Shown one piece after another: positions 5,940 through 17,481 of a DNA stretch of 48,318 nt (the first letter of the stretch is position 1; each line of letters begins with the position of its first letter). Source of the stretch: Candidatus Epulonipiscium sp. (GTDB lineage Bacteria; Bacillota; Clostridia; Lachnospirales; Defluviitaleaceae). Where the stretch lies: the NCBI GenBank assembly GCA_012521395.1, contig JAAYML010000048.1:1-48318 (forward strand), written 5' to 3'. The position numbers and the translations under genes were made by a program. The notes below the pieces were generated by a model that had not been told where the DNA came from, did no database searches, and saw nothing but the letters and a program-made list of their open reading frames with translations.

Positions 5940-7850
5940 ATGAAAAAAACAAGAAGATTATTAGGACTTTTTTCAATACTCTTTATACTTTTTAACATTT
6001 ACCCGGAAAAACTATATGCAAAGGATAATATTTTAGAAACTGAGTTAAATATTATGATTAATGAATATCCCCTAAAATATCATAAAAAACCTATAGTAAA
6101 AAACGGCAGAATTTTGGTTCCTTTACGTTCTATTTTTGAAGCCATGGGGATTGAAGTGAATTGGGATCCGGCTGAAAGAGCAGTTTATGCATGGAAGGAT
6201 GACTATTTTGTTAAAGTTGTTATTGATTCCACTTTAACATTAAGAAATGAGGAGATTTATGAATTAGATCAGTCAGCAATCATTTATAAAAACAGTACAT
6301 ATGTGCCTTTAAGGTTTATAGGAGAAGCTTTTGGTGGAGAAGTAATCTGGGATGAGTTAAGCAAAACAGCAACTGTAAGGACAGAATTTACGACGACACC
6401 TGTTATAAGGGAATTTAGTCAGATGGATATTTACATAGATAATATATTAACGAAAAGCAACTATAAGCCAATTACATACAATGGGATAGAAATGATTCCC
6501 ATAGAACCCGTTTTAAAAGCCATGGGTATAAAAAAATATATGGATGAAGAAAACAATGAAATAGTGTGTATTAAAAATAACGATGAATTAAGAATTAATT
6601 TAACCAGTAATGTTGTAGTCCTCAATAATCAATATATTTATCCTGTAAATATCATTTTTGATTACCAGGGGATGCTGTATTTGCCGCTTAGCTTACTTGA
6701 ACAAGCTTTTAAGGCAAGGACAGTATGGAATAGTTCAGCAAACAAAGTCAATATTTTTAATAAAGAACTTCCGTTTGTATTACCTGTATTGAGCAAAGAA
6801 AGTATCGAAGATGCTGTTATTCCACAAAATGCTCCAACACCAGTTCCAAAAGGGAATACAAGATTAATGGTGAGTGATAATCCCGAGAATTTAAATGCAA
6901 GTTCTATACCTGGTGAAACAGCTACACTTTGGCAAGATGCAATAAAAGAGCAAGAAGATTATGTAGAGCACATTGTGTTTGGTTACCATAAGAATCAATT
7001 TGATTTTCCAGTTGCTGTGGGGATAACCATTGAAAATTTATCTAAGGACAATGATATAGAGATAGTAAACCCTAAAGGGGTTGCCAGATATACAAGCAGA
7101 GATTGGGGTATATATGATGTGGGTCTAAAACTTGCAGAATTAAGCATCACTGATTTATTGCCTCCGGTTCTGATGAAAGACTTAGTTGTAAAAGCTGGCG
7201 AAACAAAAGTCATGGATTATTTTTATGTCAACACAGCAAATTTAGTTAGTTTTCAACATCAATTTGTCATTAAGAAAAAATCAGGGACTGGTAATCTGAA
7301 TTATGTAATCCGTACAGTGGTCAGTAAAAAGGATGAAATTCCTTTAGAATCCATTAAAACAGAACCTTTGATTTTGGATCCTGCCCAAAGGCATCCGAGA
7401 GGAAGCTGGCCATTTGCTAGATTGGAGAGAGAACTTCCTTTATATGAAGCGGGTAGTTCTCAAATTGCTTATTCCATATCCAATGGTATAACGGATAATA
7501 TTTTTTCTGCAGAAACGAGTTTTGGGAAAGAATATGGTACGGTTGGTAATATTGGTCATTATGCAGTGATTAACAAGATAAAAATTCCAGTTGCCAATTA
7601 TACTGGTTCTTCGAAAACCATTCAAATTCGTCTTAATCCCAGGGGTGGCCGTTATGGTGCCGTCGTTAAGACTAATGAGGGTTATTTCAGGGTGCCTGAG
7701 ATGAGTTCTAAAGAAGTTACAAAAATTATTGAATATTCCTTGGAAGATGGTCAGGAGGAGATTCTTGAATTCGAGATAAGCAACGCAGGGGGGTCCAGCC
7801 TTCCTATAGCGATAAATATCATTACCCTTGAGGAAGATAATTACCATTAA
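5940..7850 (+). CDS. secreted protein with two or three copper-amine-oxidase-N (stalk) domains
   Basis: The 636-residue product starts with a signal peptide (MKKTRRLLGLF, then a hydrophobic core ending near LYAK). Residues about 35-150 contain two clear PF07833 half-repeats (GRILVPLRSIFEAMGIEVNWD and NSTYVPLRFIGEAFGGEVIWD). A more divergent third and fourth unit follow at about 170-275. The remaining 350 residues are beta-rich and unassigned. Despite the domain name these proteins are not amine oxidases; in Firmicutes the module is found on wall-associated proteins. I use the ATG at 5940 with GAGAGG upstream rather than a TTG 18 bases earlier. A second PF07833 protein is encoded at 9229. Confidence 0.7.
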   Translation: MKKTRRLLGLFSILFILFNIYPEKLYAKDNILETELNIMINEYPLKYHKKPIVKNGRILVPLRSIFEAMGIEVNWDPAERAVYAWKDDYFVKVVIDSTLTLRNEEIYELDQSAIIYKNSTYVPLRFIGEAFGGEVIWDELSKTATVRTEFTTTPVIREFSQMDIYIDNILTKSNYKPITYNGIEMIPIEPVLKAMGIKKYMDEENNEIVCIKNNDELRINLTSNVVVLNNQYIYPVNIIFDYQGMLYLPLSLLEQAFKARTVWNSSANKVNIFNKELPFVLPVLSKESIEDAVIPQNAPTPVPKGNTRLMVSDNPENLNASSIPGETATLWQDAIKEQEDYVEHIVFGYHKNQFDFPVAVGITIENLSKDNDIEIVNPKGVARYTSRDWGIYDVGLKLAELSITDLLPPVLMKDLVVKAGETKVMDYFYVNTANLVSFQHQFVIKKKSGTGNLNYVIRTVVSKKDEIPLESIKTEPLILDPAQRHPRGSWPFARLERELPLYEAGSSQIAYSISNGITDNIFSAETSFGKEYGTVGNIGHYAVINKIKIPVANYTGSSKTIQIRLNPRGGRYGAVVKTNEGYFRVPEMSSKEVTKIIEYSLEDGQEEILEFEISNAGGSSLPIAINIITLEEDNYH

Positions 7851-7858
7851 AATGAAAT

Positions 7859-7920
7859 CTATCCACATTTTGTGGATAAAATGTGGATAACTGGTAAAAA
7901 AAGGGTAATAAATATTCACA
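7859..7920. promoter_or_regulatory. cluster of DnaA-box sequences within a hairpin-forming repeat
   Basis: Two perfect copies of TGTGGATAA (reverse complement TTATCCACA, the consensus DnaA box) start at 7871 and 7882, exactly 11 bases apart. A near match CTATCCACA starts at 7859 in the opposite orientation, and ATATTCACA lies at 7912. The segment 7861-7888 is also a perfect 11-bp inverted repeat with a 6-nt loop, so it may serve as the terminator of the stalk-domain gene. DnaA binding is inference. Confidence 0.45.
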
Positions 7921-7984
7921 TTGAGATTGCAAATTGATCAAATTTGTGATATTGTTTTTTTGTTATACAAGGAGATGAAGAACA

Positions 7985-9106
7985 ATGTTAATGGAATATT
8001 TAAATGCCCTGTTTTTTATTTTTGTGGCTGAAATGGGGGATAAGACTCAAATTTTGGCCATGATGTTTGCGACGAAATATAAAATGTCTAAGGTACTTTT
8101 AGGGGTTTTAATTGGTTCATTTTTGAACCATGGCATGGCTGTTTTATTTGGTTCTTTAATTGGGGGAGTGATACCTGAAAATGTATTGCAAATTATAGCA
8201 GGTTCTGCATTTATTTTCTTTGCTCTGTGGGGATTAAAAGAAGAGGACGATGAGGAAGAAGAAAAGACGTCTAAAAAGCTGGGTCCTGTTTTTACAGTAG
8301 CAGCTGCTTTTTTTATTGGAGAATTAGCGGATAAAACGCAGTTAACAGCCATCACCCTGGCAGTCAATGCTGACTATCCTTTTATTGTTTTATTGGGCAC
8401 AGTCAGTGGTATGCTTTTAACCAGTAGTTTAGGAATTATTATAGGAAGTAAACTGGGGGATAAAATTCCTGAATTGGCTTTGAAAATGATTTCCTTTGGC
8501 GTATTTTTAATTTTTGGGACTCTGAAACTTTATACTGCCATTCCCAGTCAATATATCAATTTTTATAGTATAAGTGCTTTTATACTTTTTATAAGTATTT
8601 CCAGCGTGCTGCTTTGCAGACCTATACTGGAAAGGCGCAAAAAAGGCGAAAAGTCTTTATATTTAAAAACAGCTTCCAGTTTGCAGGAATATATGAAGCA
8701 AATGAAAGATAACATCGACGATATCTGTCTGGGGGAAAATCAGTGCGGAAAATGTTTAAAGGAAGGCTGTATTATAGGTTATACAAGAGAAATCATTCAG
8801 GAAGGTATGGAAGATAAGGAACCTTGTTTAGAAGAAGCAGTTCATATTGAACAGTTTTCCATGGAAAAACACTTTGATGAAACAAAACTAATAGAAAGTT
8901 TATGCTGTACCTTTCGCTATCTTTTAGATAATTATGATGATGAACATAAAAGAAATATTGCCAATGCCATAAGAAATAATCTGGAGCTGGCCTTATTTGG
9001 TGAAGCCCTTGAATTTAATGGAGATGAGGAAAGCTATTTAGAGCAGATTAAAGAAAAAGACATATCTACCTGGGAACTCATATTAAAAAGTTTTCAGTCT
9101 GTATAG
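7985..9106 (+). CDS. GDT1/TMEM165 (UPF0016) family cation exporter with Cys-rich tail
   Basis: Both signature motifs of this Mn/Ca/proton antiporter family are present: EMGDKT at residue 16 and ELADKT at residue 113. They lie in two homologous three-helix blocks, and six to seven hydrophobic segments span residues 1-210. An acidic loop (EEDDEEEEK) joins the halves. The family is usually about 190-230 residues long; this protein has an extra 150-residue cytoplasmic tail containing C248-x5-C254-x2-C257-x4-C262, a possible metal or Fe-S site. AAGGAG precedes the ATG by 10 bases. The likely role is manganese efflux; the tail function is unknown. It is flanked by two stalk-domain genes in the same direction but appears to be a separate transcription unit. 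Confidence 0.8.
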   Translation: MLMEYLNALFFIFVAEMGDKTQILAMMFATKYKMSKVLLGVLIGSFLNHGMAVLFGSLIGGVIPENVLQIIAGSAFIFFALWGLKEEDDEEEEKTSKKLGPVFTVAAAFFIGELADKTQLTAITLAVNADYPFIVLLGTVSGMLLTSSLGIIIGSKLGDKIPELALKMISFGVFLIFGTLKLYTAIPSQYINFYSISAFILFISISSVLLCRPILERRKKGEKSLYLKTASSLQEYMKQMKDNIDDICLGENQCGKCLKEGCIIGYTREIIQEGMEDKEPCLEEAVHIEQFSMEKHFDETKLIESLCCTFRYLLDNYDDEHKRNIANAIRNNLELALFGEALEFNGDEESYLEQIKEKDISTWELILKSFQSV

Positions 9107-9122
9107 ACTGAAAACTTTTTTT
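9085..9122 (+). terminator. terminator of the GDT1-family gene
   Basis: A perfect 16-bp stem (9085-9100 with 9105-9120) has loop GTAT and ends in a T run. It overlaps the last codons and the TAG stop. Confidence 0.9.
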
Positions 9123-9228
9123 GTGCCAAAAACTACCTCTTGAAAATTATTAAGAAAATGTTACAATAATATAAGATTAGTTAATACTTTTGATATAAGT
9201 TTTAATAAAATTGAAAAGGATGATAATA

Positions 9229-10227
9229 ATGAAAAAAATCATAGCAAGCATTGCCTTTGCATTCATGATGATTATATTGCCAACAAAGGTTAATGCATCT
9301 TCCTATATTATGCATACAGTAAAATCCGGAGAAACATTAAATAGTATATCAAAAGATTATCAGGTTAATTATGATCAACTGAGCAGGTTAAATGCCGGAG
9401 CAGAGCTTAATGCCGGGAATTTAATTAAAATCCGTCCCATCGGGGGAGGTAAAAGCATTCAAATCTATTTAAATGATCAGTTCGTTTCTTCTGACCAGGC
9501 GCCTTATATGGAAAGGGGACGAACCTTTGTGCCTATCCGCTTTATTGCTGAAGCCATAGGTGTAACTGAAATTAAATGGGATGAAATCAGTGAAGAAGCT
9601 ATTTTGATAAAAGAAGGGGTAACCCTTCGTTTACCTCTTAGAAAAGCCACAGCATTTATTGGTGAAGAATCTTATACTCTAGATGCTCCAATAAACATTT
9701 ACAATGGACGAACCTTTGTACCTGTCCGATTTGTTTCCGAAGTTTTTGATGTTGATGTTAAATGGGATGAGGCAACAGCTTCTGTAAAATTGTATACCAA
9801 AGACTATACACCAGTAAAAGAACCCGAAATGTTATTGTCTCCAGCCAGATCTTCTGCGTATTCGGAAGAAGATTTATACTGGCTGTCAAGACTGGTTCAT
9901 GCAGAAGCAGAGGCAGAACCTTTTGAAGGTAAGTTAGCTGTAGCTAATTGCGTCATTAACCGAAAGAAAAGCAAAGATTTTCCTAATACAATTAAAGGTG
10001 TGATATTTGATACCAATTGGGGTGTACAATATACTCCTGTAGCTAATGGGAAAATATATAATAATCCTTCAGAAGAAAGTATAAGAGCTGCCCGCATGGC
10101 TTTGGAAGGACAAAATAATGTCGGAGAATGTCTTTATTTCTTAAATCCCAAAAAGTCCACAAACAATTGGATTATCAAAAACAGGACTTTTTATCGCAGA
10201 ATTGGTAATCATGATTTTTATCTGTGA
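9229..10227 (+). CDS. LysM / stalk-domain / SleB-type cell wall hydrolase
   Basis: The 332-residue secreted protein has a signal peptide (MKKIIASIAFAFMM, cleavage near VNAS). A LysM peptidoglycan-binding motif follows (HTVKSGETLNSISKDY, about residues 30-72). Next are PF07833 half-repeats (GRTFVPIRFIAEA and GRTFVPVRFVSEV). The C-terminal Hydrolase_2 (SleB/CwlJ) domain spans about 215-332, with LVHAEAEAEPFEGKLAVANC and the catalytic-region Glu in HAEA. This domain is a lytic transglycosylase or amidase acting on cortex or wall peptidoglycan. The ATG at 9229 is chosen because AAAGGA lies 8 bases upstream. The LysM plus stalk plus SleB order suggests wall remodelling during sporulation, germination or growth. 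Confidence 0.8.
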   Translation: MKKIIASIAFAFMMIILPTKVNASSYIMHTVKSGETLNSISKDYQVNYDQLSRLNAGAELNAGNLIKIRPIGGGKSIQIYLNDQFVSSDQAPYMERGRTFVPIRFIAEAIGVTEIKWDEISEEAILIKEGVTLRLPLRKATAFIGEESYTLDAPINIYNGRTFVPVRFVSEVFDVDVKWDEATASVKLYTKDYTPVKEPEMLLSPARSSAYSEEDLYWLSRLVHAEAEAEPFEGKLAVANCVINRKKSKDFPNTIKGVIFDTNWGVQYTPVANGKIYNNPSEESIRAARMALEGQNNVGECLYFLNPKKSTNNWIIKNRTFYRRIGNHDFYL

Positions 10228-10259
10228 AGCCACGCTTTAAGCTTATTATATATTTGCTT

Positions 10260-10310
10260 CCAAAATAGATAGTCAAATTTTTAAGGCTATCTTTTTGGGA
10301 GTATTTTTTT
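10260..10310 (+). terminator. terminator after the SleB-type hydrolase
   Basis: A stem of 12 bp with one bulged T (10260-10272 with 10287-10298) is followed by a run of seven T at 10304-10310. Confidence 0.7.
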
Positions 10311-10338
10311 ATAAAAAATGAATTATTTCTCCTAATTA

Positions 10339-10367
10339 TAGACATATTGTTTAGGCTTTATTATAAT
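10339..10367 (+). promoter_or_regulatory. sigma-A type promoter for the DHH gene
   Basis: TAGACA at 10339 and TATAAT at 10362 are separated by 17 bases, 68 bases before the TTG start. A second TATAAT starts at 10371. Confidence 0.5.
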
Positions 10368-10434
10368 GATTATAATACAAATATTGTAAAAATATTTCGT
10401 AAGATAATGAAAAATTTGATTTAGGGGGATTAAC

Positions 10435-11934
10435 TTGAAACTTTCTGATTTATTAAATTATAGTTCCATTTATATCCAATGTCATGATAATCCCGATGCT
10501 GATGCAATTGCTTCCGGTTATGCCCTGTATGAGTTTTTTAAGAGCAAAGGCAAAAAGGTAAGACTCATTTACGGAGGACCTTTTAAAATTACAAAACCCA
10601 ATCTTAAGCGAATGATAGAAGAATTAAAGATACCTATTGAATTTGCAGAAGAATTATCTTTAAAGGATGAACTTTTGATTACGGTAGATTGTCAATACGG
10701 GGCAGGAAATGTGAAAAAGTTTAATGCAAAAAATGTGGCAATTATAGACCATCATCAACAGGAAATCTATGATGTAGCTCAGGCAGAAATCCGGTCTTAT
10801 CTTGGAAGTTGTTCAACTTTAGTATGGAGGATGCTTTTGGACGAAGGTTTTAAAGTGAATGATTACAAAGATGTAGCCACAGCACTTTATTATGGCCTGT
10901 TTACCGATACCAACAGTTTCATTGAAATCCATCATCCATTGGATAAAGACTTAAGAGACAATATTTATTATGATGCCAGCTTAATTAGAATATTAAAAAA
11001 CTGTAACTTTACTTTAGAGGATATGGAGATAGCAGGGATTGCTTTAATCAGGCATTCTTATATTGATGCTTATCGTTGTGCAATCTTTAAGGTACATCCT
11101 TGTGATCCGAATATACTGGGATTTATAAGTGATTTAGCTTTACAGGTGGATAAAATTGATACATGTATTGTTTATAATGAAACCAATGCTGGGGTTAAGT
11201 TTTCAGTCCGCAGTTGTATAAAGGAAGTTATGGCATCTGAAATGGCTGCCTTTATTGCTGAAGGTATTGGTTCAGGTGGAGGACATACGGATAAGGCAGG
11301 AGGCTTTATCAGTGAAAGTAAATTTAGAGAATTAAATCTTGGAATGAATAAAGACGGCTATCTTCATCATAGGATTAAGGAATACTTTGAAAGCTTTGAT
11401 ATTATTTACAGTAGTCATCATAAGCTGGATCTTAGTACAATGGAAGTTTATAAAAAGAAGAATCTTGTTGTAGGCTTTGTTCCTTCTACCGATATTTGTG
11501 AAGAAGGAACCCCCTTACTTATCAGAACCATAGAGGGCGATTTGGATATTGTTGCTTCAGACGATATTTATATCATGATTGGGATAAAGGGAGAAGTCTA
11601 TCCTATTAAGCAGGAAAAGTTTATAAGCAGCTATAAAGTATTGGGTGAAGCTTTTGTTTTAGAAGGTGTGGAATACTTTCCTTCAATAAAAAATAAAATA
11701 ACAGGAGAATATATTGATTTTAGAAATTATGCTAAAGCCTGTATGTCTACAGGAGAAGTCTTTATTTATGCAAAACCCCTGACAAAAAACACAAAGGTGT
11801 TTACCAATTGGGATCCGGGTAAATATATGTCAGGAAAAGAAGGAGATTATATTGCCGTAAGAAAAGACGATTATCATGATGTCTATATAATCGAAAAATC
11901 AATTTTTAATAAAACTTATCAAAAGTGTGAATAA
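10435..11934 (+). CDS. DHH/DHHA1 family phosphoesterase with extra C-terminal domain
   Basis: The DHH core shows HDNPDADAIAS (residue about 17), the DCQ metal ligand, DHHQ near residue 104, and TDTNSF. The DHHA1 substrate domain carries GSGGGHTDKAGG near residue 280. Such enzymes cleave nano-RNA, pAp or cyclic dinucleotides. About 170 residues follow that are not in the minimal family. They end in a block EGDYIAVRKDD, then DVYIIEKSIFNKTY; I do not assign it with confidence. Translation starts at TTG, supported by AGGGGG 6 bases upstream. The LURP-one-like gene follows after 11 bases, so the two are probably cotranscribed. The substrate cannot be told from sequence. Confidence 0.75.
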   Translation: MKLSDLLNYSSIYIQCHDNPDADAIASGYALYEFFKSKGKKVRLIYGGPFKITKPNLKRMIEELKIPIEFAEELSLKDELLITVDCQYGAGNVKKFNAKNVAIIDHHQQEIYDVAQAEIRSYLGSCSTLVWRMLLDEGFKVNDYKDVATALYYGLFTDTNSFIEIHHPLDKDLRDNIYYDASLIRILKNCNFTLEDMEIAGIALIRHSYIDAYRCAIFKVHPCDPNILGFISDLALQVDKIDTCIVYNETNAGVKFSVRSCIKEVMASEMAAFIAEGIGSGGGHTDKAGGFISESKFRELNLGMNKDGYLHHRIKEYFESFDIIYSSHHKLDLSTMEVYKKKNLVVGFVPSTDICEEGTPLLIRTIEGDLDIVASDDIYIMIGIKGEVYPIKQEKFISSYKVLGEAFVLEGVEYFPSIKNKITGEYIDFRNYAKACMSTGEVFIYAKPLTKNTKVFTNWDPGKYMSGKEGDYIAVRKDDYHDVYIIEKSIFNKTYQKCE

Positions 11935-11945
11935 AGGAGTATACC

Positions 11946-12437
11946 ATGAAATATATAATCAATCAAAAAATATTTAGTATTGGAGATAAATTTGTTATAA
12001 AAGATGAATATGGTTCAGAAAGGTATTTTGTAGAAGGTAAGGTTTTTTCCCTAGGGGATAAACTTAAGATTTATGATAGTAATGGGCAGGAAAGAATTTA
12101 TATTGAACAAAAATTATTTAAACTGTTACCTGAGTATTATCTTTATTTCGACGGGAATTTTGCTGCAAAAGTAAAACAAGCTTTTTCCCTTTTACGACCT
12201 AAATTTCAGATAGAGAGTCCTTTTGGTTCATATAGTGTTGAAGGCGATTTTTTTGGCTATGATTTTAGAATTATGAAAAATAGCCGTCTGGTTGCCCATG
12301 TAAGTAAAAAATTCTTTTCTTTTAGAGATTCTTATGGCGTAGACATTGTAAACGATGAAAATGATCTGTTGATTTTGGCCGTTGTCATTGTTATTGACCA
12401 GGTGATTCATGATGAAGATCACCACCGTAATCATTAA
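11946..12437 (+). CDS. LURP-one-related / tubby-C-like protein (YxjI family)
   Basis: The 163-residue protein matches the LURP-one (PF04525) pattern of short beta strands with repeated hydrophobic/charged periodicity: IFSIGDKFVIKDEYG, FSLGDKLKIYDSNG, and FGSYSVEGDFFGYDF. The fold is a beta barrel around a central helix, related to Tubby and scramblase C-terminal domains. No catalytic residues are known for the family. The tail is rich in His and Asp (DEDHHRNH). AAAGGAG precedes the ATG. It follows the DHH phosphoesterase closely, but its link to that enzyme is unknown. Confidence 0.7.
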   Translation: MKYIINQKIFSIGDKFVIKDEYGSERYFVEGKVFSLGDKLKIYDSNGQERIYIEQKLFKLLPEYYLYFDGNFAAKVKQAFSLLRPKFQIESPFGSYSVEGDFFGYDFRIMKNSRLVAHVSKKFFSFRDSYGVDIVNDENDLLILAVVIVIDQVIHDEDHHRNH

Positions 12438-12470: not shown

Positions 12471-12522
12471 AAAAAAATACTTCCAGCACAAATAGAGACT
12501 ATCTGGCTGGAAGTATTTTTTT
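12471..12522. terminator. bidirectional terminator between LURP-one gene and TIR-WD40 gene
   Basis: A perfect 17-bp stem (12471-12487 with 12506-12522) has A7 and T7 flanks and an 18-nt loop. It serves convergent genes on both strands. Confidence 0.9.
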
Positions 12523-12528
12523 AGGTCA

Positions 12529-15507
12529 CTATTCAATAATATAATATTTGATTTTTTCTTCCTTGCTCAGTTTGCGATTTCCCAATTCACTTTTTGCAAT
12601 ACGTACGAGACTTTCTAAATCATACCGCGGCATTAAAATGACGTCTTGATAATTGAAGGATAAGAAATTTGTAAATGAATGATTAATATCAAGTACTTTA
12701 TTGATATAAGCTAATTTTTTATAGTTCACAGGATTCCATAATATGCATTCTCCAAATTCACCAATGGTTATAAGCAGATTTCCATCAGGACTATACCTGC
12801 ATTCTTTTAAAATTTGATTATGTCCTGTAAGTTCTGTCTTATACTGTCCAGTTTCTAAATCGTAAATTTGAATGCTTTTATCATCTAAGCCGACAAATAG
12901 TTCACGGTTGTCATGACTAAATGTAATGACTGAGGGGGCGAACAATAAGTTTTCAATGTAACCAACCATTTCAAAGTTTTTCGTATCGTAAATATAGATT
13001 CTGTCACCTTGATTAAGAGCCAGCAGACTATCATCTTTATTAAAAGCGATTACATTTATTTTGAGGTTTTCTTTGTTTTGAAAAGTATGTAGGATCTTAG
13101 CTGTTTTTATATCATAAAGTGAAAATTCTCCGTCCCATTTGCCGATTAAAACGAACTTATCCTGGTTAGAAAAGAAACTTTTATTTAAATAACTGTTATT
13201 ATTAATAGTCAATAGCTCTTTACAGTTATAGCAATCAAATATTTTAACCATATCGTCAATTTGTAATGCCACTAAAGAGTTGGAAGGGCTATAGTAATAA
13301 TTTGTAAAGGAACCTGTATTTAGAGAGGATAATTCTGAGCCGGAGGACATATCAAAGATTTTAATATATCCCTCTTTAGTCAGAATAGATATTTTGCTTT
13401 CATCAGGTGTAAAATCTGCATTCAAAATAGTTCCTTCTATTCCATTAAGCTTATTAAATAAGGATCTCTTTTCAATATCCCAAATGAAGACTTCTGATTC
13501 TGCAACTGTTAAAACCTTCTGGCCGCTGGGTGAAAATTTACCTTTTTCGATTGTTGAACTATGTCCGCTCATTGTTGTTACATAAGGATTATCTAAAGAT
13601 TTTAATAAATAAGCTTTATTGGAAGTAGAGGCAGATAGTGCAAGTATATTACCCTCTATATCCATTACGGATATGGAATCATTATGATAAATATTCCAGG
13701 AAGGCAGACTAATGCCTATGTCAAGAGAGTAAAACATAATATTTCCGTCCAGGGATGTAGTAACAATAAAGTCGCCATCATTGAATATTTTAAAGTTTGT
13801 TACCTTAGAACCATGGGTAAAAGTAAATAAGATTTCTCCAGAAGATATATCAACGACTTTAACCAATTCATTTTCTGTATAGGCAACAATATTTGAGTTT
13901 ACAGGGCTAAAACTTGCTTCAGCAATGGTGGAGGTGTTTAATTTATGGTTTAAGATGTTTTGAGTACTCTCGGTATCCCATATTTCTATATTACCTGTGC
14001 CGGTACTATAAATATCTGCCGTTTCTAAATCAAAATTTCCTGAGAAGGCAGCTATTTTTTTACCGTCATCACTAAAAAAGACTTTTTTAATATTTTCATT
14101 GGCAGAATTAAGACGATAAAGATTTTTTTGATTTTGGATATCTACTAATTGGATTAAGCCCTGATCTGTCCCCAAAGCAAGGATGGATCCATCTTGGTTA
14201 AAAGCCATGGCATTCACAAGTTCGAAATTTTTTCTTTCGAAAGTCATATGGATGAATACGTTTCCATTGTTGATATCAATTAATTTTAAATGGTTTTTCG
14301 TTGGTTCTTGTTGAATCAATGCAAGGCTTTTTCCATCTGGATTTAATACAAAACGAGGAATAGTAGCTTCTATTTCCCAAAGCTTTACGCCTGTTGTTGT
14401 ACTCCAGGCAGCCAGTCCATCTGAAGTAATCGATACAATTATTTCTCCGTTAGCAGAAAAAGAACTTTGTTCTTTGGAAAGCGTGATGGAATTATGGGGG
14501 AAAGTATAAAGCAAATTACCATTACTTGTGTCCCATAAATAGATTTTCCCATCGTTGCAGACAGTGAACACTTTAGAATGATCTGGACTGATCTGAATAT
14601 TGGACACACTTTTTCGATGATTCAATACAATATCACTCATAAAAGTATTGCTTGTATTGTAGATATTCAATCCTTCAGTCAGGGCATATTCAGCTTCTTC
14701 TACATAAGGACGTTCAGGTTTTTCAAGATTTTTGGGGAGGGCTTCCAAAGCTAAAAGAATAGCAGTTCTTCTATCCCCTTCATTGAGCACTTGTCGGGAT
14801 AAATTTGCTAAGTATAAGGATTGACCTTCAAGGGTTTTATTTACTTGTTGTTTTATTTGTATGGCCTGCCATGTACTAAACGAACCAAAGGCAAGGAAGA
14901 ACAAGGAGAAGCAAATGGAAATCGTAATCACTCTTTTTATAAATCTTTCCCTGTGTCTTTGCCTTAAATCATCAAAGTTGCAGCCTAAAATGGGTGCCAG
15001 TAATCTTAATAATTCTTTTTTTAAATTTTTGATTAATTCTTTTGTATCTTTACCTCGTATATCCGCTGCAAGGGGCTCTACTTCTTCTTTTTCTTCAATG
15101 ACATTTCCTTCATTATCAATCATTTCTTTTGTAACAAAGCGAAGTTGTTCAGGGAAAGCATCAATAGGCTCTCCTTCAATCAAAAGTGCCAGAATTTTAT
15201 CATGTCCATGAAGTTTTGAAAAGGTTTCAATTTCTTTTAATACCCATTTGGATTCAGGCGTTCGTGGAGAACAGATAACAATCAGGTATTCAGAATTTAT
15301 TAAAGCATCTTCTATACTGGCAGCTAAATTACTGGATGTAGGAAGTTCTTCCTTGTCTCTGAAAACACGGTTAATTTTCTTTTTCCCCGTTTTTTTAGCA
15401 ATTTTAGAAGGTACTTTATAGGTTTCTAACATTTTATGAAGTTTTTCAGCGATTGTTTTATCAGGTTCAGTATGACGATAACTGATGAAAGCATCGTATT
15501 TTGGCAT
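12529..15507 (-). CDS. TIR domain - transmembrane - WD40 repeat protein
   Basis: Residues 1-165 form a TIR domain: YDAFISYRHTEPDK (box 1), RVFRDKEEL (about 47-55), and VICSPRTPESKWVLKEIE. E92 sits at the position of the catalytic glutamate in NAD-cleaving TIRs. A basic stretch RQRHRERFIKR precedes one transmembrane helix at about 192-214. After a helical linker, residues about 290-975 hold roughly a dozen WD40-like repeats (for example ISPDHSKVFTVCNDGKIYLWD), enough for two propellers. There is no NB-ARC or other NTPase. By the positive-inside rule the TIR is cytoplasmic and the WD40 part outside. Similar TIR-TM-WD40 proteins occur in many Firmicutes with no assigned function. It lies 73 bases downstream of a second TIR gene on the same strand. 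Confidence 0.85.
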   Translation of the reverse strand: MPKYDAFISYRHTEPDKTIAEKLHKMLETYKVPSKIAKKTGKKKINRVFRDKEELPTSSNLAASIEDALINSEYLIVICSPRTPESKWVLKEIETFSKLHGHDKILALLIEGEPIDAFPEQLRFVTKEMIDNEGNVIEEKEEVEPLAADIRGKDTKELIKNLKKELLRLLAPILGCNFDDLRQRHRERFIKRVITISICFSLFFLAFGSFSTWQAIQIKQQVNKTLEGQSLYLANLSRQVLNEGDRRTAILLALEALPKNLEKPERPYVEEAEYALTEGLNIYNTSNTFMSDIVLNHRKSVSNIQISPDHSKVFTVCNDGKIYLWDTSNGNLLYTFPHNSITLSKEQSSFSANGEIIVSITSDGLAAWSTTTGVKLWEIEATIPRFVLNPDGKSLALIQQEPTKNHLKLIDINNGNVFIHMTFERKNFELVNAMAFNQDGSILALGTDQGLIQLVDIQNQKNLYRLNSANENIKKVFFSDDGKKIAAFSGNFDLETADIYSTGTGNIEIWDTESTQNILNHKLNTSTIAEASFSPVNSNIVAYTENELVKVVDISSGEILFTFTHGSKVTNFKIFNDGDFIVTTSLDGNIMFYSLDIGISLPSWNIYHNDSISVMDIEGNILALSASTSNKAYLLKSLDNPYVTTMSGHSSTIEKGKFSPSGQKVLTVAESEVFIWDIEKRSLFNKLNGIEGTILNADFTPDESKISILTKEGYIKIFDMSSGSELSSLNTGSFTNYYYSPSNSLVALQIDDMVKIFDCYNCKELLTINNNSYLNKSFFSNQDKFVLIGKWDGEFSLYDIKTAKILHTFQNKENLKINVIAFNKDDSLLALNQGDRIYIYDTKNFEMVGYIENLLFAPSVITFSHDNRELFVGLDDKSIQIYDLETGQYKTELTGHNQILKECRYSPDGNLLITIGEFGECILWNPVNYKKLAYINKVLDINHSFTNFLSFNYQDVILMPRYDLESLVRIAKSELGNRKLSKEEKIKYYIIE

Positions 15508-15580
15508 TAAATCACCTGCTTATCTTATTTTAGCCACTGCTAAATGTTTTGCTGGGTCTAATATGAGCAATAAACAATTT

Positions 15581-17401
15581 TCATTTGAAAGGAACAACTT
15601 CTATATTATCATAGCCAATTTCTTTGATTAATTCACAAACTTCCAGTAAATGTTCTGTTGAAACAGCAAAGTTCAAATTAGCTTCACCAATACCAGAAGT
15701 CGTTACGCCAATCACTTTACCGGAATCATCAAATAAGGCTCCACCAGAATTACCATGAGTAATCGGAATAGAAATTTGAATTAAGTGAACACCATCCTGG
15801 TTCCAGGTATTTGATATAATTCCAGTTGATACTGTATTAAAAAGTCCCAGTGGTGAGCCTATTGCTACAGCCATTTCACCTTTTTGAACATCGCTGATTC
15901 CACCTAATCTAACGGGTTCAACACCAATTTGTTCAGTTAATTTTAAAATAGCCAAATCAAGAGCAGGATTAGCACATACAATTCCTTCAACTTCAATGAA
16001 TCTTTCGTCTGTAAGGCGGACATAAGCACTTCTTCCACCTTCGATGACATGAAAATTGGTTACAATGATACCGTCTTCAATGAAAAAGCCACTTCCCTGT
16101 ACTTCTCCTTCTGGTGTGTCAACAAAAACAGCAACAACTTTGTGATCGTTTTCTTCAACAATTTCTTTTACAGATTTTAAAGAATTGTTGTTGATATTAG
16201 CATCTGAAGGAACATAAGCTTGAACGGTATCTTCTGCTTCAATGACTTCTTTTTCTTTCATTTCTTCATAGAAAGAATTAATTTTTTCATATCTGTTTTC
16301 CAGTTCTTCTTGTTTGATGGATTCCATGTAAAGGTATTTTAATTCACCGTCATTTGTTTCAATAATAACGACATTATTATATAAAGAGGCTTCACCTTCT
16401 ATATGCTCTGTTTCTCCAGTTTCTGTTTCCCTGTCATAGTTAGCATAAACGGTAAAATCCATACTCAAAAGATACTCAATACCAAAATCCTTTTTATTTT
16501 TTCCCATTACTTTTACATCATCAAATCGGACAACTTCTAAGCCCATCATGGCAAACAGAACATCTTCCTGAACATTATATAAATCTTTGTATTCTGGTCC
16601 CTGATATCCGTAATTTTGATAAAATTCTGAGCCGCTGTTTGTACGGTCAAGTTCCCGGATGGCTTCTTTTGCGAATTCTATGATTTCTTCTTCTGTAAAT
16701 CTGCTTCCATACAAATCATCATCCTGTTCAACTTTAAAACCAATATCATAAGCACCGTTACTGCTGGTTGTTGTTATTTCTTCTATATAAGATTCATCCG
16801 TGGGAGCCAAAAGAAGTGACATGCCAAAGATGCCTCCTGCTAAAAGAATCAGACACACAACGGCTGCAGCTGATATTCCAATAATTAAAGGTGCCTTACT
16901 TTTTTTTGCCGGGACAGGACGGTTAGGATTAGGGGAATTAAAGTTGTTGCTGTAATCTACAGGTGCTTGTGGTATTACAGCATGGGGAACATTATTTCTT
17001 TGTGCGGCTAAAAGATTTTTTAATAAATTTTCAAGTTTGTATATGCTTTCATATATAGAAGTTACTGTTGCATCGATTTTATAGTTGCTTTGCAGATAGG
17101 CTTCCATATTTTGAGAAGGTATTTTGTTTTCAATGATAAACGGAATAATAATTTTATTGTTTTCCGAAGCTTCTTTGACTTCACGTAAAACATCCTGTGA
17201 AGATTCGGCATTTGATGAATAGATAAAAACCATAGCACGGCAGTTATGAATTGCCTGGAGTATTGCTGCATTGTAATTCTGATTAGCATGAATGTTTTTA
17301 TCAGAATTCCAGCATTTTATACCTTTTTTCTCGAGATTTTCATATATTGCATCGGCTATTGCTTTATCATTTGATGAACTGGAAATAAAAATAAAACTCA
17401 T
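15581..17401 (-). CDS. TIR domain - transmembrane - HtrA-like serine protease
   Basis: The 606-residue protein starts with a short TIR domain (residues 1-125). It contains IFISSSSNDK, then GIKCW, and SSNAESSQDVLREV, with E74 at the NADase glutamate position. A Pro/Asn-rich linker and KKSK lead to one transmembrane helix (about 170-198). Residues 200-400 form an unassigned alpha/beta region. The C-terminal chymotrypsin-fold protease has TNFHVI (His451), ALDLAIL (Asp482) and GNSGGALF (Ser552), a complete triad of the Trypsin_2/HtrA type, but no PDZ domain. Predicted topology: TIR inside, protease outside. It is the first gene of the TIR pair, with a promoter candidate at 17453-17481. Signalling between the protease and TIR is inference. 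Confidence 0.85.
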   Translation of the reverse strand: MSFIFISSSSNDKAIADAIYENLEKKGIKCWNSDKNIHANQNYNAAILQAIHNCRAMVFIYSSNAESSQDVLREVKEASENNKIIIPFIIENKIPSQNMEAYLQSNYKIDATVTSIYESIYKLENLLKNLLAAQRNNVPHAVIPQAPVDYSNNFNSPNPNRPVPAKKSKAPLIIGISAAAVVCLILLAGGIFGMSLLLAPTDESYIEEITTTSSNGAYDIGFKVEQDDDLYGSRFTEEEIIEFAKEAIRELDRTNSGSEFYQNYGYQGPEYKDLYNVQEDVLFAMMGLEVVRFDDVKVMGKNKKDFGIEYLLSMDFTVYANYDRETETGETEHIEGEASLYNNVVIIETNDGELKYLYMESIKQEELENRYEKINSFYEEMKEKEVIEAEDTVQAYVPSDANINNNSLKSVKEIVEENDHKVVAVFVDTPEGEVQGSGFFIEDGIIVTNFHVIEGGRSAYVRLTDERFIEVEGIVCANPALDLAILKLTEQIGVEPVRLGGISDVQKGEMAVAIGSPLGLFNTVSTGIISNTWNQDGVHLIQISIPITHGNSGGALFDDSGKVIGVTTSGIGEANLNFAVSTEHLLEVCELIKEIGYDNIEVVPFK

Positions 17402-17452: not shown

Positions 17453-17481
17453 ATTATATACAAAATTCATATTGTTTACAA
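17453..17481 (-). promoter_or_regulatory. promoter for the TIR operon
   Basis: On the minus strand TTGTAA (17481-17476) and TATAAT (17458-17453) are separated by 17 bases, about 50 bases before the TIR-protease start. Confidence 0.4.

Follow-up and report, generated by a model that had tools for sequence, protein, structure and literature searches.

TIR NADases are common immune effectors, and many NAD-cleaving TIRs carry a Trp four residues ahead of the catalytic Glu. Those with which the proteins described here can be compared include plant Roq1 and L6, AbTIR, TIR-STING and the CRISPR-associated Cat1. An example of a TIR-like immune effector has been described (PMC13174449). HtrA/DegP proteases combine an S1C domain and its His-Asp-Ser triad with a C-terminal PDZ domain, and RsgI9 of Clostridium thermocellum (PDB 7sjy), a membrane anti-sigma factor with an S1C-NTF2 ectodomain, was reported to be protease-like and cellulose-binding (PMC12203970). 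The DHH-DHHA1 phosphodiesterases include TM1595 PDE, the catalytic domain of GdpP, NrnA/Pde2 and DhhP. To our knowledge, no pathway has been studied for bacterial TIR proteins with a membrane anchor and a repeat ectodomain. The open-access literature, as far as it was covered, yielded neither a tie between TIR and DHH proteins nor a fusion of TIR with an S1C ectodomain.

We analyzed a 48,318-nucleotide stretch of Candidatus Epulonipiscium sp. DNA (contig JAAYML010000048.1, hereafter the window). Positions 12529-17401 hold two co-directional minus-strand genes, which a preliminary description had read as coding for a TIR-TM-protease (TIR-protease) and a TIR-TM-WD40 protein (TIR-WD40). ORF analysis and Pfam matches bore this out; both ORFs open with ATG, and their coordinates and strand were verified (Table 1). 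The Pfam TIR_2 scores of the two proteins were 70.2 and 45.4 bits against a curated cut-off of 28. TIR_2 covers residues 4-110 of TIR-protease (2.6e-18) and Trypsin_2 covers residues 436-566 (2.3e-25). The genes are 73 bp apart, and this spacing together with the common direction makes a two-gene unit likely. The promoter match upstream of the unit says little, since the promoter scan of the region gave fewer matches than were found in shuffled sequences. The terminator-like repeat separates the TIR unit from the convergent DHH-LOR unit, and its loop is too long for the terminator scan. A carbon-monoxide dehydrogenase gene lies upstream of the TIR pair on the opposite strand.

Table 1. Features of the TIR and DHH-LOR units in the window.
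Feature	Position	Strand	Basis
DHH500: DHH-DHHA1 phosphodiesterase (residues 1-322) with beta-rich C-terminal part (about 331-499)	10435..11934	+	Motifs, model, fold matches
LURP-one-related (LOR) protein, directly downstream of DHH500	11946..12437	+	Domain match
Bidirectional terminator-like inverted repeat, AAAAAAATACTTCCAGC ... GCTGGAAGTATTTTTTT	12471..12522	.	Read from sequence
TIR-WD40 (TIR-TM-WD40 protein), 992 aa	12529..15507	-	ORF, domain matches
WD40 array of TIR-WD40, residues about 291-992 (~700 residues)	12532..14637	-	Domain matches
Transmembrane segment of TIR-WD40, residues 193-213	14869..14931	-	Hydrophobicity, charge pattern
TIR domain of TIR-WD40, residues 1-188, W88 and E92	14944..15507	-	Pfam TIR_2, alignments
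TIR-protease (TIR-TM-(alpha/beta domain)-S1C protease protein), 606 aa	15581..17401	-	ORF, domain matches, model
S1C (HtrA-type) protease domain of TIR-protease, residues about 406-600, H451/D482/S552	15602..16186	-	Pfam, sequence and fold matches
Predicted alpha/beta ectodomain module of TIR-protease, residues about 231-360	16322..16711	-	Model
Transmembrane segment of TIR-protease, about residues 170-192	16826..16894	-	Sequence hydrophobicity
TIR domain of TIR-protease, residues 1-135, Glu74	16997..17401	-	Pfam; model pLDDT >90
Sigma-70-like promoter match (10/12) upstream of the TIR unit	17453..17481	-	Promoter scan; weak evidence

Both TIRs share homology and the position of the catalytic Glu with the TIR NADases. 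In TIR-WD40, Trp88 and Glu92, which sits four residues past the Trp, coincide in alignments with the WxxxE motif of NAD-cleaving TIRs from plants and bacteria, and both residues are identical in all 38 aligned homologues. Glu74 of TIR-protease aligns with the catalytic Glu of TIR-STING and Cat1 and is invariant in 20 related TIRs. The Trp is missing from this protein; Asp70 takes its place, and most TIR-protease relatives have Gln there. E74, E92 and the protease residues H451, D482 and S552 named in the preliminary description were verified in the sequence, and its placing of the two glutamates at the NADase catalytic position agrees with the alignments and their conservation, with the qualification that TIR-protease has no Trp. 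Judged by these residues, both TIRs may process NAD(P). Unlike the known TIR NADases, the two proteins appear to be receptors that span the membrane once and carry a WD40 or S1C ectodomain; neither has an NTPase or cyclic-nucleotide-binding part. ThsB profiles of the Thoeris system matched the two TIRs weakly (5e-4 and 9e-3), and no profile match to the Thoeris effector ThsA was found among the ten window proteins scanned.

Each protein has a single hydrophobic segment with basic residues ahead of it, as had been described: RHRERFIKR stands before the segment of TIR-WD40, and in TIR-protease KKSK precedes the segment and acidic residues follow it (the linker to the TIR is of low confidence in the model). 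In 36 of 37 TIR-WD40 homologues the positive charge is higher ahead of the segment than behind it (means +3.3 vs. +0.8). This excess predicts the orientation of TIR-WD40, and the charge pattern of both proteins makes an N-in/C-out topology likely, with the TIRs inside and the WD40 and S1C parts outside the cell, as had also been proposed. The cysteine content of the WD40 part was tried as a topology test and was uninformative on the side of the membrane. By its length, the WD40 array would be long enough for two propellers.

The S1C triad of TIR-protease is intact, with H451 in TNFH, D482 in ALDLA and S552 in GNSGG. The protein shares the S1C domain and this triad with the HtrA/DegP family and lacks the C-terminal PDZ domain and the full-length family score: Pfam gave no PDZ domain, the protein stops after the protease domain, and the NCBIfam DegP model scored 115 bits, under its cut-off of 416. 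The best match of the S1C domain was RsgI9, both by sequence (4e-27) and by fold (Z 30.4, 198 residues, rmsd 1.9). RsgI9 is single-pass, with a cytoplasmic output and an extracellular S1C domain, and the same layout is predicted for TIR-protease. They differ in the output domain, which is a TIR in TIR-protease and an anti-sigma domain in RsgI9 (at the N-terminus of TIR-protease Pfam found the TIR and no RsgI anti-sigma domain), in the module beside S1C, which precedes it in TIR-protease and follows it in RsgI9, and in the active-site motif (GNSGG vs. ESTGG). The module of TIR-protease is modeled as helices followed by four long strands, with pLDDT mostly 53-90. It looks NTF2-like by appearance only; the Pfam scan gave no match to it, and in the fold search with the ectodomain S1C matches filled the list and hardly covered this region. 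Protease activity is plausible because TIR-protease has the standard GNSGG motif, unlike the ESTGG of RsgI9. By analogy, the domain may sense instead of cut, since its nearest structural relative has been described as cellulose-binding. The HtrA-like label given before fits the triad, and the domain is a putative protease, its nearest solved relative being protease-like and cellulose-binding.

The statement that no nuclease accompanies the TIR genes proved too strong. DHH500, a DHH-DHHA1 phosphodiesterase that recurs beside TIR-WD40 elsewhere, lies two genes from the TIR pair on the opposite strand, with LOR and the terminator-like repeat between. Its metal motifs (HxxxDxD, D, DHH and D) and the GGGH of DHHA1 are kept: H16, D20, D22, D84, D104, H105, H106, D157 and G280-282 are invariant in 34 sequences, and H283 is nearly so. 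The AlphaFold2 model had a mean pLDDT of 91, and residues 1-322 matched the folds of TM1595 PDE with 5'-pApA (Z 24.9), GdpP (Z 23.5) and NrnA-type enzymes. DHH500 shares the fold and metal-site motifs of the known DHH-DHHA1 phosphodiesterases; it is set apart from them by about 18% identity, by an extra beta-rich C-terminal part of ~165 residues and by its genomic tie to TIR receptors. By eye the C-terminal part consists of two similar halves, and it gave a sub-threshold match to Pfam PGDYG (0.18) and a match to a phage family without assigned function. The window genome encodes further DHH proteins in open frames of about 810, 684, 549 and 326 aa, and DHH500 is thus an extra DHH enzyme and not the sole one. 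Judged by length, these frames may code for RecJ-, GdpP-, pyrophosphatase- and NrnA-type proteins. In one genome (G006) the DHH-LOR pair is present and both TIR genes are absent.

TIR-WD40 and DHH500 are recurrently associated across Clostridia. Thirty of the 45 genomes that have both genes carry them together (TIR-WD40 no more than two genes from DHH500, three in G004 and G005, with full-length DHH500 coordinates compared), vs. about 0.11 genome expected from random placement. The two are directly adjacent in 26 of these genomes, and one or two genes stand between them in the other four, which belong to the window's family. All four relative orientations occur. DHH500 is followed by a co-directional TIR-WD40, with overlapping, touching or near-touching ends, at L253, L129, L130 and L133; TIR-WD40 is followed by DHH500 at L059, L060, L128, L137 and L138; the genes are convergent at L063, L064, L127, L131, L135, L136, L234, L238, L251, L252 and L254, and divergent at L227. 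Across 23 loci, about 17 distinct sets of outer neighbors were counted; a few of the flanking ORFs involved may be spurious. Mapping linkage onto the DHH500 tree requires about 15 changes of state (the linked locus L056 being scored as unlinked under the two-gene rule), and the association has therefore formed or been lost many times. Neither gene strictly needs the other: DHH500 often stands without an adjacent TIR (43 of the 67 loci on the tree), and TIR-WD40 is also found in genomes without DHH500. At several sites the other neighbors of DHH500 stay constant whether or not TIR-WD40 adjoins it. DHH500 likewise has membrane TIR proteins of a different class as neighbors in G321 (L167, about 20 bp upstream), G124 (L170) and G509 (L250, 18 bp upstream); the one in G321 is a TIR_2-TM-DUF6273 protein.

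At L229 (G634:C189), TIR-WD40 stands beside carbamoyltransferase-like and acetyltransferase-like genes (assigned by eye) that flank DHH500 in G702 (L227). The genome search for full-length DHH500 found none in G634; at a site where G702 has both genes, G634 has apparently retained TIR-WD40 while DHH500 was lost.

We tentatively favor a reading in which membrane receptors with a cytoplasmic TIR act on the same nucleotide pathway as the neighboring DHH-DHHA1 phosphodiesterase, and we hold it to be possible, somewhat short of probable. Inferring the topology, the TIR catalysis, the DHH500 substrate and the sensed signal, we propose that TIR-protease and TIR-WD40 would be single-pass receptors, each with a cytoplasmic TIR enzyme and an extracytoplasmic sensor (the WD40 array, or the alpha/beta module with S1C). 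Binding or clipping of a ligand outside would cluster the TIRs, and the clustered TIRs would turn NAD(P) into a nucleotide product. DHH500 would most likely act on a nucleotide pathway shared with the TIRs; most simply it would hydrolyze the TIR product as an off switch, or else it would make the final product. Since the recurrent partner is a nucleotide phosphodiesterase, it provides a concrete chemistry hypothesis, that the TIR product is the DHH substrate, which is testable with two purified proteins. The reading is backed by the linkage to DHH500, by the conserved catalytic residues of the TIRs and of DHH500, by the charge pattern and by the purifying selection on both TIR genes; it is weakened by the separate occurrence of TIR-WD40 and of DHH500, by the missing Trp of TIR-protease, and by the opposite strand of DHH500 in the window, where LOR and the terminator-like repeat intervene. 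More doubtful is the wider form of this proposal, a bacterial Toll-like receptor pathway in Clostridia in which an outside WD40, S1C or DUF6273 sensor would drive a TIR second messenger, and a dedicated DHH500 with a C-terminal regulatory part would degrade that messenger as a paired off switch.

Anti-phage suicide, in which the receptors would sense phage adsorption or injection and the TIRs would deplete NAD, the DHH enzyme clearing RNA fragments or being an ordinary neighbor, is unlikely. It agrees with the frequency of TIR NADases in immunity and with the patchy, multi-copy set of TIR-WD40 genes; moreover, between the window and the sister species (G001) the WD40 part has diverged faster than the TIR of TIR-WD40 (59 vs. 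89% identity). Rough dN/dS estimates for this comparison were 0.05 for that TIR, 0.23 for the WD40 part, 0.14 for TIR-protease and 0.07 for DHH500, and both TIR genes are under purifying selection. The fast change of the WD40 part is as expected of a recognition surface, and equally of any repeat array. Depletion of NAD, however, needs no dedicated phosphodiesterase. PADLOC gave weak matches among ten window neighbors and no known system, and the flanks in relatives are core-genome-like (glutaminyl-tRNA synthetase-, endonuclease III- and ATP synthase-like, from N-terminal sequences), with no defense island; these two results argue mildly against a mobile defense island. In the same comparison (15581-17401 vs. 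L052), the dS of TIR-protease was 0.48 and that of its neighbors 1.2-2.0; rough as these estimates are, the lower value hints at a later transfer or recombination of TIR-protease.

The preliminary description had instead paired the two TIR proteins as one envelope-stress unit, in which S1C would clip an outside protein, perhaps the WD40 part. The intact triad, the GNSGG motif, the co-directional adjacency of the genes in the window and at the same place in G001, and their clustering in G004 and G005 are in keeping with such a unit, which we nevertheless consider quite unlikely in view of the distribution of the genes. Four of the eight genomes in the window's family have TIR-protease and TIR-WD40 linked, including G001 and those of another genus (G004 and G005, with the cluster TIR-protease, TIR-WD40 and a second TIR-protease; the first TIR-protease of G004 is broken into two frames), so linkage in relatives holds to that extent only, and the association is local, restricted to this family. 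Of 344 genomes of the order, 49 carry TIR-WD40, nearly always without TIR-protease; elsewhere in the class it turned up in another 28 genomes. TIR-protease occurs without TIR-WD40 in G002, where it carries an extra C-terminal domain, and in G003 a TIR-TM is fused directly to this other ectodomain, with no protease. The recurrent partner of TIR-WD40 is DHH500 and not TIR-protease. No TIR-S1C fusion was detected outside the family in the order genomes, the class TIR-WD40 genomes or the other loci inspected. Apart from the window, the matches listed in a phylum-wide search (up to three candidates scored per genome) had separate TIR or protease parts and no fusion, and those listed from a plasmid collection covered the protease part only, with no record covering 80% of the protein. 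TIR-protease seems to be a combination peculiar to this family, drawn from a modular class of TIR-TM-ectodomain proteins. In other proteins of this class the ectodomain is DUF6273 (Pfam); these TIR_2-TM-DUF6273 proteins of Clostridia have the TIR class and layout of TIR-protease, with DUF6273 in place of the alpha/beta module and S1C.

It is very unlikely that the TIRs are non-enzymatic scaffolds that recruit a cytoplasmic partner, as animal adaptors do. The missing Trp of TIR-protease would suit a scaffold, as would its second copy in G004 and G005, where Asp replaces the catalytic Glu, but the Glu is invariant in both wider TIR sets and every aligned TIR-WD40 keeps Trp and Glu. The second copy is possibly a degenerate or regulatory paralogue. 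Least probable of all is a chromosomal hotspot at DHH500 that receives TIR genes with no functional tie: TIR-WD40 seems inserted beside DHH500 where TIR-less relatives keep the outer genes (L127 vs. L153 and L162; L129 and L130 vs. L163 and L182), yet TIR-WD40 is seen to either side of DHH500 and in every orientation, a pattern not expected of site-specific insertion, DHH500 itself occurs in many contexts, and G634 appears to keep TIR-WD40 alone at the G702-type site.

Several further observations were made at related loci. The second TIR-protease copy (L055, 5438-7774; L056, 12281-13801) has a two-residue deletion before the Asp and a weaker hydrophobic segment. In G002 (L053, G002:C16, 1034-8981), TIR-protease adjoins a large EssC-like protein of the FtsK/SpoIIIE-FHA type, along with two small proteins that look WXG100-like by eye, surroundings that resemble type VII secretion loci. 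A TIR and BspA-type leucine-rich repeats are combined in a 949-residue protein of the window's own genome (L058, G000:C38, 296-3145); no transmembrane segment was found in it, and its N-terminus shows a weaker TIR-like stretch. A compact signaling cluster in G343 (L172, G343:C22:237000-253000, 6786-11306, minus strand) contains a GAF-GGDEF protein, a TIR with zinc-ribbon-like cysteines, a receiver and class III cyclase-like protein, and a protein that matches the C-terminal half of DHH500 without the DHH part (domains called by eye, except for the TIR and DHH500 matches). In two family f5 genomes (L059, 8635-12483; L060, 5000-8005), TIR-WD40 follows a very large protein of 1282 and 1001 aa, respectively, which is probably secreted, has a C-terminal hydrophobic segment and is a candidate outside ligand or partner of TIR-WD40.
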